The notes under the pieces were generated by a model. The model did not search any database. It was not told where the DNA came from and worked only from the letters and a program-made list of their open reading frames with translations. The translations under genes were made by a program, and so were the position numbers. 64,000 bases of DNA, from NCBI RefSeq assembly GCF_001570605.1, contig NZ_BBXG01000015.1, positions 1 through 64,000 on the forward strand, written 5' to 3'. This DNA is from Herbidospora cretacea. Lineage in GTDB: Bacteria > Actinomycetota > Actinomycetes > Streptosporangiales > Streptosporangiaceae. Shown piece by piece: positions 27,398 through 30,124 of the stretch. The stretch's first letter is position 1. Each line of letters opens with the position of its first letter.

Positions 27398-27955
27398 TTA
27401 TCGGGGGCGCGATGAGGTCCCCGCTCCCGAAATGAGGGAGCTGTTACGTTCCATCCCATATTGGGTTCCTAGCCGGACTTCTGACTCAGTCACCAATGTG
27501 CTCAGGAATATCAGGAGTTCTCCGGAAGTGAGCGTCGCCCGCAATCCGGCCCCCGAAGCGCCCCAGGCCTCGACGTGGGCCCGCCGGGTCAGCCGCCACC
27601 GGCCGGTGACGCCCCGGCCGGGCACCCAGACCGGGATGAGCCTGAGCTGGCAGCGGAGCTCCCCGCCGCCCACGACGTCGGTGCGGCTGCGGTAGCGGAA
27701 CCCGAACAGTTCCTCCTCGTCGTCGCCGGGGAACCGGTCGTCGGGGTCGTCCCAGGCCCCCTGGGAATCGCGCGCCTCGGCGACCGACCGGGCCAGCCGG
27801 GCCAGATACCAGCCGCACCGCTCCCCGACCGAGCCGTAGGGCACGCCGTCGCGGAACAGCTCCAACGTGACCTCGTAGGGCACCCCGGCGCTGTCGCGGC
27901 ATGCCACGGGATCAACCGTCAGGTACGAACCGTCAACGCACCGTAGTCCACCCAC
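27398..27955 (-). CDS. unknown soluble protein at the end of the MNIO operon
   Basis: About 185 residues from the GTG at 27955; the start is uncertain because no Shine-Dalgarno is clear and upstream codons look non-coding. No domain was recognised. Visible features are several Cys in the first third (GLRC, VACRD, GERCGWYLARLARSV), an acidic central stretch (DDPDDRFPGDDEEELFGFRYRSR), then beta-rich sequence with RLIPVWVPG and TGRWRLTRRAHVEAWG. Third-position GC is high through most of the frame, supporting coding. The gene follows the small MNIO-partner gene by 40 bp on the same strand and is probably co-transcribed. Confidence 0.6.
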   Translation of the reverse strand: MGGLRCVDGSYLTVDPVACRDSAGVPYEVTLELFRDGVPYGSVGERCGWYLARLARSVAEARDSQGAWDDPDDRFPGDDEEELFGFRYRSRTDVVGGGELRCQLRLIPVWVPGRGVTGRWRLTRRAHVEAWGASGAGLRATLTSGELLIFLSTLVTESEVRLGTQYGMERNSSLISGAGTSSRPR

Positions 27956-27995
27956 GCCACAGAGGGTATCCCGGGCACACCCCGGCAAACCGGCC

Positions 27996-28367
27996 CTACC
28001 GGTATTGATCCTTCTTTGGGGTAATTCGCCACCAGTGCCGCTTTTGTTGGCGCTCCGGCTCGGCGGCGGCCAGCAGCCCCCGCTCCCCCAGCCACTCGGC
28101 GAACGCCGCCGCGTCGGCCCGCGATCCGCCCTGGGGTTTCGGACGGCCGGAAGCATAAGCGTGGAACTCCCGCCCGAACGCCTGCCCGAGCGCCCGGACG
28201 ACGTCGGGCCGAAGGGCTGCGACCAGCCCCCGCCTCTTGGCGATCAGACTGCTCGCCTGGATCCGCAGCCGCTCCGCGTCGAACCCGTGAGGCGGCGCGG
28301 CCCCCGCCACCAGAGCCGCGAGCAGCGCCCGCTGCTGATCGGCCAGCTGAGCCCGAGGGTCAGCCAC
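27996..28367 (-). CDS. small helical partner protein of the MNIO enzyme
   Basis: 123 residues, predominantly helical (DQQRALLAALVAG, RIQASSLIAKRRGLVAAL, VVRALGQAFGREFHAYA), then a GG-containing turn and a short domain AAFAEWLGERGLL. The C-terminus is basic (WWRITPKKDQYR). GTG 28367 overlaps the MNIO stop by eight bases, indicating coupling. The layout faintly resembles the N-terminal part of DUF2063/BufC-type proteins that accompany MNIOs, suggesting substrate presentation (inference). Otherwise it is an unknown protein. Confidence 0.75.
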   Translation of the reverse strand: MADPRAQLADQQRALLAALVAGAAPPHGFDAERLRIQASSLIAKRRGLVAALRPDVVRALGQAFGREFHAYASGRPKPQGGSRADAAAFAEWLGERGLLAAAEPERQQKRHWWRITPKKDQYR

Positions 28368-29169
28368 GGTTCAGGGCCGCTCTGATCCGGTCGAGTTCCT
28401 CGGAGAGGACCGCGTCGCTGGGGTAGTCGGCGTCCCACTCCAGGAGCGCGCCCGGGGGCCGGTGGCGGGCGGAGAGTTCGGCCAGGAGGTCGAGGACCTC
28501 CTGCGGCGGCGAGGCCGTGTGGGTGTCGTGCCACACGTCGCCGTGACCGTGGCCTCCCGCGACGTGGACGTAGGCGACGTGTTCCAGGGGCAGCGCGTCG
28601 AGGGCCTTGACCGCGTCGAGGCCCAGGTTGACCTGGTTGGTGTAGAGGTTGGCCACGTCGATCAGGAGCTTCACCCCGGTCCGTTCGACCAGTTCGCCGA
28701 GGAACTGCGCCTCGGTGAGCTCGTCGCCGGGCCAGCCGAACAGGGCCGCGACGTTCTCCAGGGCCAGCGGCACCGGCAGGCAGTCGAGGGCGATGCGGAC
28801 GTTCTCCACGATCACGCTCAGCGCGTCGCGGGTGCGCGGCACCGGCAGCAGGTGCCCGGCTTCGAGGTCTCCCGACCGAACGTACGCGAGATGTTCGCTC
28901 ACCAGCGGAGACCCGAGGGCCTGGGCGACGGCGGCCAGGTGGTCGAGCCGGGCCTGGTCGGGCCGTTCGGCGCCGCCGATGCCGAGCGCGACGCCGTGGG
29001 GGATCACCGGGATCCCCCGCCCGCGCATCAGCCGCAGCGACTCGGGCACCCGCGCCGGGACGATCGTCTCGGCGATGACCTCGGTGAACTCGACCCCGGG
29101 CAGGTGCTCGACGGTCAGGTCGATCTCCGACCGCCAGCCGATCCCCACGCCCAGCCGGTCAGCTGCCAC
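28360..29169 (-). CDS. DUF692 family multinuclear non-heme iron oxidase (MNIO)
   Basis: 269 residues from GTG 29169, which overlaps the stop of the upstream membrane-protein gene by 11 bases; longer readings only translate the Gly/Cys tail DNA in another frame. The TIM-barrel metal ligands are all in place: E34 (EVIAE), H58 (PHGVAL), H93 (SEHLAY), E138-N139 (ALENVA), D171 (LLIDVANLY), H202 (YVHVAGGHGHGD), D211, H214 and H217 (DVWHDTH), and E244 (LLEWDADYP). Characterised MNIOs modify Cys or Asp residues of ribosomal peptides (methanobactin, bufferins, TglH). The only Cys-rich product nearby is the tail of the preceding gene. Confidence 0.9.
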   Translation of the reverse strand: MAADRLGVGIGWRSEIDLTVEHLPGVEFTEVIAETIVPARVPESLRLMRGRGIPVIPHGVALGIGGAERPDQARLDHLAAVAQALGSPLVSEHLAYVRSGDLEAGHLLPVPRTRDALSVIVENVRIALDCLPVPLALENVAALFGWPGDELTEAQFLGELVERTGVKLLIDVANLYTNQVNLGLDAVKALDALPLEHVAYVHVAGGHGHGDVWHDTHTASPPQEVLDLLAELSARHRPPGALLEWDADYPSDAVLSEELDRIRAALNRG

Positions 29170-30124
29170 CGCAGCCACCACCGCACCCTCCGCCGCAGCT
29201 CGACCCGCCGCCGGAGTCGCCGCCGCCGCCCGAGTCGCTCCCGCCGCCGCCGAAGTCGCCGCCGCCGAAGTCGGAACCGGAGCCCCACCCGGAGTCGGCG
29301 CCCACCGCGCCGCCGCAGGCGCCGGCGCCGCAGCCGCCACCGCCGTGCTGGATCTCGGCGTGGCCGGGGCCGGTGTAGATGGCCAGGCCGTAGAGGGCGA
29401 TCGTGCTGTCGTTGCCGCTGTTGTGGGCGTAGGCGAGCTCGCGGGTGCGCGGGTAGCGCGCCTTGGCCGCCCGCAGCGCGGCGTGCCCGGCCGGGGTCAG
29501 CACGCTGAGGTTCTCCTTGGCGTTCCCGGACGCCACCGCCATCCCGATGATCCAGGTGAGCACCGAGACGATCAGCGTGAGCACGCTCCAGAGCACCGAC
29601 TCGAACCAGCCGAACGCCAGCGACACGATGCTGACCGGCACGAACAGCCCCGCGAGCCCGCACAGCCAGCGCAGCTTGGTGTTGGCCCGCCGGGCCGAGG
29701 TGAGCGCCGAGTCGGCCACCACGAGCCCGTGGCCCCGCAGCCCGTAGTCGATGCCGGTGACGGCCGGGCCCACGCAGACGGTCCGCCGGATGTCGGCCAG
29801 CGGCCGGCCGTTGACCCCGGTCGCGAGGTCGAGCACCTCCTGCTCGACCCGCTCGGCGGGGGCCCCGGCGATGCCGCGGACGGCCGTCACCGAGCCGTCG
29901 CGGGAGATCCGCACGCGGCCCTGGGAGACGAGCACGGCGACCGCGGTGTTGACCACCCGCCGGGGGCCGCCCGCGAGGAAGGCCAGCGAGTAGGGATCGA
30001 GGCCGGGCGGAGCGTAGCCGCCGCCGGACTTCACCCGGCGCTGCTCCTGCTTGACCCGGCGAGCCTGACGGAAGACCAGCACCACGGCGACGATCGCCGG
30101 GATGAACAGGACGAGGGAGTCCAT
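29159..30124 (-). CDS. TIGR04222-like membrane protein with Gly/Cys-rich C-terminal tail
   Basis: 321 residues with GGAGG six bases before the ATG. TM1 is at about 2-18 (SLVLFIPAIVAVVLVF). A conserved region follows (GLDPYSLAFLAGGPRRVVNTAVAVLVSQGRV), then two more transmembrane helices at about 150-195. A short soluble part leads to a 60-residue tail of Gly, Ser and Asp with five Cys at 265, 270, 310, 314 and 318, the last three as C-GGG-C-GGG-C. The tail is low-complexity and looks like a modification substrate rather than a fold. It is the first gene of the operon with the MNIO enzyme, so the tail is proposed as the MNIO substrate (inference). Confidence 0.85.
   Translation of the reverse strand: MDSLVLFIPAIVAVVLVFRQARRVKQEQRRVKSGGGYAPPGLDPYSLAFLAGGPRRVVNTAVAVLVSQGRVRISRDGSVTAVRGIAGAPAERVEQEVLDLATGVNGRPLADIRRTVCVGPAVTGIDYGLRGHGLVVADSALTSARRANTKLRWLCGLAGLFVPVSIVSLAFGWFESVLWSVLTLIVSVLTWIIGMAVASGNAKENLSVLTPAGHAALRAAKARYPRTRELAYAHNSGNDSTIALYGLAIYTGPGHAEIQHGGGGCGAGACGGAVGADSGWGSGSDFGGGDFGGGGSDSGGGGDSGGGSSCGGGCGGGCGGS

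Follow-up and report, generated by a model that had tools for sequence, protein, structure and literature searches.

A candidate MNIO and partner system for the cysteine tail of a TIGR04222 membrane protein in Herbidospora cretacea

Described MNIO systems and the Herbidospora cretacea locus

Pairings of MNIO (DUF692) enzymes with TIGR04222 membrane proteins are the closest described relatives of the locus reported here, which lies in the window, a stretch of 64,000 nucleotides at the start of contig NZ_BBXG01000015.1 of the soil actinobacterium Herbidospora cretacea. In the available excerpts of the in silico study by Antoine et al. (2025), TIGR04222 proteins make up 40% of more than 1,000 Cys-containing, signal-peptide-less proteins encoded before MNIO genes, their Ser/Gly-rich C-termini with Cys are called periplasmic, and subsets of them are proposed as MNIO substrates (PMC12452194). 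Many of these loci seemingly lack a partner gene, while at least 10% encode PME-type 2 proteins, according to the same excerpts (PMC12452194). The pairing was therefore already known in silico (PMC12452194); the initial annotation knew of no characterised pathway of this form and allowed that the pairing might have been noted. No experiment on the pairing was found in the searched literature, as far as the accessible text of those papers goes. A TIGR04222 protein has also been mentioned in a putative bacteriocin cluster of Pseudonocardia, in the accessible part of that report (PMC5183585). The H. cretacea locus shares with the loci of Antoine et al. the family pairing and the Ser/Gly-rich Cys C-terminus on an integral membrane protein beside the MNIO (PMC12452194). 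It differs from them, as they appear in the excerpts, in that the partner is near-universal in the window's order instead of often missing, in other actinobacteria frequently forms a single protein with the MNIO, and stands beside a tail predicted to be cytosolic instead of periplasmic. We propose that the MNIO and its partner probably modify the Cys of the attached tail and thus constitute a three-part modification system.

MNIOs acting on EGKCG repeats (fontiphorin, oxazolin) have been reported to install 5-thiooxazoles, which absorb near 305 nm, with copper being bound, in the portions of that study at hand (PMC13097082). Captophorins and EGKCG peptides resemble the present locus in combining an MNIO with a DUF2063-type partner and in their Cys-Gly sites, but they involve peptide substrates with Lys ahead of Cys and, as partner, a DUF2063 (PME1) protein (PMC13097082). 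In our locus, Cys follows Gly or Ser, a membrane protein is the putative substrate, and a single short DUF2063-like domain makes up the partner. The bufferins (Buf1/Buf2) are related through the enzyme, whose best NCBIfam match is the bufferin maturase BufB (NF050167); the 179.6 bits remain under the equivalog cut-off of 310, however, the partner bears no Pfam DUF2063 signature, and none of the three genes encodes a bufferin precursor. MbnABC also unites an MNIO with a helical partner, and MbnC is the first, non-significant fold match of the partner described here, whereas the similarity of MbnB to our MNIO profile is distant (best E 2.8e-10); methanobactin itself is a short peptide. Unlike the short, leader-bearing precursors of ribosomally synthesized and post-translationally modified peptides (RiPPs), the candidate substrate here is a membrane protein of 321 residues.

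Three overlapping genes on the minus strand encode, in order, the TIGR04222 protein (29159..30124; NCBIfam TIGR04222, E 5e-33, 114.7 bits against a cut-off of 43), the MNIO (28360..29169) and a 123-residue protein (27996..28367). The Gly/Ser tail of the first, the putative modified stretch, spans residues 263-321 (29162..29338, minus strand) with Cys at 265, 270, 310, 314 and 318, the last three spaced as C-GGG-C-GGG-C; the family match and these residues agree with the initial description of a membrane protein ending in a five-Cys low-complexity tail of about 60 residues. The MNIO start had been placed inside the tail codons with an 11-base overlap, as holds for GTG 29169, and an in-frame GTG at 29178 behind GGAGGG (20-base overlap) is a second candidate. 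The start of the third gene overlaps the MNIO end by 8 bases (28367/28360).

The cysteine tail and its occurrence with the MNIO

The tail and the enzyme were followed through 249 genomes of the window's order, of which 179 hold TIGR04222 and 116 hold PF05114. A protein was scored as having a Cys tail when its final 80 residues contained three or more Cys and when Gly, Ser and Cys together made up at least half of its final 40. The tail and genome counts omit frames truncated at the end of a stretch, tails present in duplicate, and hits of our own profile failing E 1e-3. By genome, a Cys tail is present in 101 of 102 with the window's type of MNIO and in 1 of 67 without it; G155, the sole genome with this MNIO failing the rule, has a four-Cys tail under the composition threshold. 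G234 is counted among the 105 genomes with this MNIO, yet its enzyme has neither partner nor TIGR04222 and may belong elsewhere. Counted by protein, 131 of the 141 TIGR04222 proteins encoded in genomes that have this MNIO carry the tail, versus 1 of 76 encoded in genomes lacking it; these 76 comprise 68 from MNIO-free genomes and 8 from genomes with other MNIO types. Among the 76, 37 end in a Gly/Ser-rich tail that falls short of the Cys rule, their final 60 residues containing 0 to 3 Cys. The initial annotation had reckoned TIGR04222 loci lacking DUF692 as a rule to be evidence against it; such a lack is found in 68 of the 179 TIGR04222 genomes, yet 67 of 68 TIGR04222 proteins inspected from genomes of this kind are without a Cys tail.

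Composition within the tails points in the same direction. The residue after a tail Cys is Gly in 84.5% of 645 Cys from the 131 Cys tails, as against 27.7% after Ser (n=1459) and 57.4% after Gly (n=3458). Moreover, Cys amounts to 8.2% of the last 60 residues versus 0.28% of the 230 residues preceding the tail zone, a region in which the TIGR04222 proteins of MNIO-free genomes contain 0.65%.

A tree of 205 of the 217 TIGR04222 cores splits the proteins that lack this MNIO into groups of 57, 7, 1 and 1, the MNIO label changing 4 times and the Cys label 10 times; a smaller-sample tree (148 of 159 cores) gives groups of 34, 7 and 1. Because the MNIO-less proteins fall in four tree groups, the agreement at the level of genomes amounts to about four events, and a Fisher value presenting the co-variation as a strong statistic was dropped, since the trees show few changes. 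The match might thus be a historical accident of TIGR04222 subfamilies, one of which happens to hold both features, a reading also favoured by one of the single tree cases, G238, which kept a five-Cys tail although no MNIO was found. We regard such an accident as very unlikely, given that G190, the remaining single case and a close relative belonging to a genus in which the MNIO is usual, has neither this MNIO nor a Cys tail, as tail modification would lead one to expect, that additional TIGR04222 copies of MNIO genomes, whether in tandem or distant, keep their Cys tails (the 131 of 141 above), and that Cys is rare outside the tail. In the corresponding loci of both genomes (L215 of G238, L362 of G190), TIGR04222 adjoins the fourth gene described below and no MNIO was found between them, as if the pair had been lost at different times.

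Two to four Cys-tailed TIGR04222 proteins are encoded in 26 of the 101 Cys-tail genomes. One MNIO may serve several TIGR04222 substrates, to judge from gene content, because two genomes (G050 and G093) hold one MNIO match each. In three loci (L033, L048 and L057), a second TIGR04222 without tail Cys lies downstream of the MNIO, while the upstream TIGR04222 has five Cys.

A different reading of the locus is that the tail Cys bind metal unmodified and that the MNIO acts elsewhere, on an unannotated peptide or on another residue of TIGR04222. The loci on the MNIO side were picked by MNIO or MNIO-TIGR04222 neighbourhood, so the adjacency counts do not represent a random draw of TIGR04222 genes. 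In a scan of named genomes covering the best 80 of at least 554 candidate loci, to which all counts out of 80 refer, 17 loci, all from Streptomyces, pair an MNIO-partner fusion with a neighbouring TIGR04222 that has no tail. The initial annotation had held tails without Cys beside intact MNIOs to be damaging, and these loci go part of the way towards that case; the MNIO-partner pair needs no adjacent Cys tail. Seven further fusions among the 80 have no TIGR04222 in the stretch, some of them near contig ends. A whole-genome search of 20 Streptomyces (16 of the 17 and 4 of the 7) found TIGR04222 over the cut-off in 18, leaving two genomes with the MNIO and no TIGR04222, and a Cys tail by the rule was present in 2 (L202 and L213) of the 30 TIGR04222 places retrieved of 37 in these genomes. 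In addition, 4 of 22 loci taken from other families showed no Cys tail. These cases, together with G238 and the small number of tree events, weigh against tail modification, and the fusions, the two Streptomyces genomes and G238 are what unmodified Cys would lead one to expect. The Cys-Gly bias, the Cys-poor Gly/Ser tails in genomes without this MNIO and the constant three-gene order argue the other way; moreover, a search of 11 loci without the usual Cys-tailed TIGR04222 for alternative Cys-rich Gly/Ser ends turned up just two, on the TIGR04222 of L143 itself and on an opposite-strand frame of L153. An action of the MNIO elsewhere therefore appears distinctly unlikely, and the tail is probably, though not firmly, its substrate.

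A DUF4142 gene lies near the MNIO in 22 of the 80 loci (L145 to L183, Streptomyces), and in several Streptomyces loci it sits between the MNIO-partner fusion and the tail-less TIGR04222. The DUF4142 protein was considered as an alternative substrate and set aside, as four examples contain 0 to 2 Cys.

The enzyme, its partner and neighbouring genes

The window MNIO matches PF05114 in Pfam with E 3.4e-77 and 259.7 bits against a cut-off of 25. The residues H54, H89, E134, D167, N170, H198, D211, H213 and E240, the His, Glu, Asp and Asn positions that we take to be metal ligands, are invariant in 57 aligned MNIOs and align with those of 3BWW, TglH and MbnB wherever the alignments reach them, in line with the initial statement that the DUF692 enzyme keeps the expected ligands. 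The nearest named relatives of the MNIO sequence, among the matches listed, are from Herbidospora galbida and H. solisilvae (94%). DUF2063 proteins were found in 8 of 18 genomes checked (L274 to L282), where an MNIO of another, bufferin-like type is close by.

The third gene accompanies the enzyme almost without exception. MNIO loci of the order were inspected in 108 of the 116 genomes, one locus each (81, that is 80 plus the window, and 27), the sample leaving aside any second MNIO in a genome as well as the loci of the eight genomes with other MNIO types. A partner homologue is present in 103 of the 108 (78 of 81 and 25 of 27). Four of the five partner-less loci (L023, L040, L070 and L365) also have no TIGR04222 in the stretch, and the fifth, L339, has a stretch that ends 131 bases past the MNIO. 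Conversely, TIGR04222 is found in the stretch of 76 of the 78 partner-bearing loci; of the two exceptions, L056 has Cys-tailed TIGR04222 copies elsewhere in its genome (L085), and L069 stops at a contig edge. The published impression that TIGR04222-MNIO loci are frequently partner-less does not hold in the window's order. In the named-genome scan, the partner is present in 76 of 80 loci, three of the four misses lying on stretches that end 131, 191 and 476 bases past the MNIO. The other-family loci have the partner in 20 of 22 and a Cys-rich Gly/Ser tail beside the MNIO in 18 of 22, five of these 18 tailed proteins escaping our own TIGR04222 profile. MNIO and partner are fused in a single frame in 37 of 80 loci of the named-genome scan, 5 of 22 in other families and 1 of 81 in the window's order. 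SCO6045, presumably a fused MNIO, appears in one expression table, in the part of that source at hand, and was not used here.

The 123-residue partner is modelled by AlphaFold2 as four helices with a mean predicted local distance difference test score (pLDDT) of 89.9, which agrees with the small helical partner first described for this position. The window protein itself has no match in Pfam or NCBIfam, including no match to Pfam DUF2063 at E up to 10; DUF2063 is nevertheless the Pfam family matched by most of the aligned partner members, weakly and in 6 of 57 (best E 0.0027). A profile comparison of the partner with DUF2063 (hhalign; 10 rows from 9 loci) covers 90 columns with P 2.4e-4 and a probability of only 43.6, its score of 28.9 exceeding the at most 18.2 reached in 40 column shuffles. 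A fold search in the Protein Data Bank (PDB) gave nine matches, none significant, which speaks against the assignment; the first was MbnC (7dz9_C; E 2.7, probability 0.35), and neither the DUF2063 structure 3DEE, to which a PME-type 2 partner should be related, nor TglI was among the nine. The partner profile gave one match to solved structures, at E 0.21. Since PME-type 1 proteins, in the excerpts seen, have 250-260 residues and at full length an RRE domain (PMC12452194), the short protein, without their DUF2063 signature, does not belong to that type; as in PME-type 2, it is encoded after the MNIO, in 78 of the 81 loci of the order. From sequence comparison, the third protein is a probable PME-type 2, DUF2063-like partner.

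The initial annotation had described a four-gene operon with overlapping starts, which is correct for the three genes above but not for the fourth frame (27398..27955, minus strand), most likely beginning at GTG 27955, about 40 bases past the third gene. The fourth protein has no match in Pfam or NCBIfam; its family is conserved, with the motif GGLRCVDGSYLTV. Relatives occur in 106 of the 249 genomes, 32 of these without this MNIO, and are missing from 31 of the 105 genomes counted with it. Because its relatives do not track the MNIO, the fourth gene is to be dropped from the system as a neighbour probably outside it. A promoter scan of the locus found none, and the single terminator-like site is about what chance would give. 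The minus-strand locus is flanked by what we take to be phosphoenolpyruvate carboxykinase and isoprenyl transferase genes. The H. cretacea genome (8.28 Mb in 36 contigs) contains one MNIO match, one TIGR04222 match over the cut-off and one below it.

Membrane topology and the proposed role of the tail

Whether a cytosolic enzyme could reach the tail depends on its side of the membrane. The AlphaFold2 model of the TIGR04222 protein (63 sequences; mean pLDDT 81) shows three long helices, the first two separated by a domain, and a disordered tail (pLDDT <50) that is preceded by short helices. Hydropathy, charge and the model place transmembrane segment 1 at residues 3-22 (30059..30118; model helix 3-33), with the N-terminus predicted outside, segment 2 at residues 150-170 (29615..29677) and segment 3 at residues 179-199 (29528..29590), all on the minus strand. 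The soluble domain between them (residues 40-137; 29714..30007, minus strand), predicted to be cytosolic, is modelled with the elements H44-52 H54-67 E71-73 E78-81 and H92-101 H109-117 H120-131 and is read as two winged-helix-like units; weak Pfam matches among the 63 aligned members (DUF2207_C in 13, the winged-helix HTH_Crp_2 in 8) agree with this. A fold search with the model gave nothing significant, the best match being Vps74 at E 0.37, and the profile matched solved structures mostly through low complexity in the tail. With Vps74 at this E value and GPP34 in 1 of 63 members, no relation to GOLPH3 is claimed.

The tail might instead be modified and yet lie outside the membrane, the enzyme acting before or during export, so that it would serve as an extracytoplasmic metal buffer like the bufferins (Antoine et al.). 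This is the published periplasmic reading, which rests, in the excerpts available, on predicted topology and comparison with bufferins (PMC12452194). By Kyte-Doolittle hydropathy, exactly three segments are predicted in 68 of 108 proteins, four in 23, two in 16 and one in 1; the extra segment of the 23 lies mostly just before the tail and, if it spanned the membrane, would put the tail outside. On a stricter scale, segment 1 passes in 70 of 104, segment 2 in 82 of 117 and segment 3 in 92 of 117. These predictions, with the published reading, count against a cytosolic tail, and the four segments in 23 of 108 leave doubt on its side. The positive-inside rule, in contrast, puts the tail inside in 113 of 117 proteins (64 of 68 in a first test on those with exactly three predicted segments), Lys and Arg amounting to 0.20 per residue on the inside flanks versus 0.036 in the loop that joins helices 2 and 3 on the outside. 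The possible fourth segment has a far lower hydrophobicity (median 7.6, compared with 0.1 to 1.0), passes the stricter threshold in 5 of 117 and is an 11-residue helix in the model, and a winged-helix-like domain between segments 1 and 2 would usually be cytosolic. An outside tail is therefore considered unlikely, and a cytosolic tail with an outside N-terminus is the probable arrangement from sequence and model, which would bring the tail within reach of a cytosolic enzyme.

We suggest that the membrane-embedded TIGR04222 protein exposes its N-terminus to the outside and keeps both its winged-helix-like domain and its Gly/Ser/Cys tail on the cytosolic side, where the MNIO, with its DUF2063-like partner, would oxidise tail Cys at Gly/Ser-Cys-Gly sites. 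The product would most likely be 5-thiooxazoles, as in the EGKCG peptides, although on this analogy the conversion of the tail Cys to 5-thiooxazole can be put forward only tentatively. As the tail would stay attached, a membrane-tethered, cytosol-facing ligand for metal, probably copper, would result; metal binding by the tail is predicted with similar caution. It is even conceivable, though rather unlikely when taken as a whole, that RiPP-type chemistry here takes place on a resident protein, with the cytosolic tail as an uncleaved and unexported row of thiooxazole metal ligands, the winged-helix-like domain replacing the leader, a possible function as copper buffer or sensor, and one enzyme for up to several substrates. 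The idea of an MNIO pathway acting on a membrane-anchored Cys tail, as it was initially formulated, draws support from the gene order, from the constancy of the partner, from the preference for Gly after Cys and from the joint occurrence of Cys tail and MNIO, and has lost its fourth gene.

What is new here is the support for a near-constant partner and its fusions, for Cys-Gly sites, for a cytosolic topology and for the match between Cys tail and MNIO, as well as the exclusion of the fourth gene. Together with the fusions and the natural variants that lack Cys, the three-gene unit offers a clean experimental system. On which side of the membrane the tail lies determines whether it would be an external metal buffer or an internal metal ligand or sensor. 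If the proposal is true, MNIO chemistry would act on resident membrane proteins besides peptides, across a large actinobacterial group.

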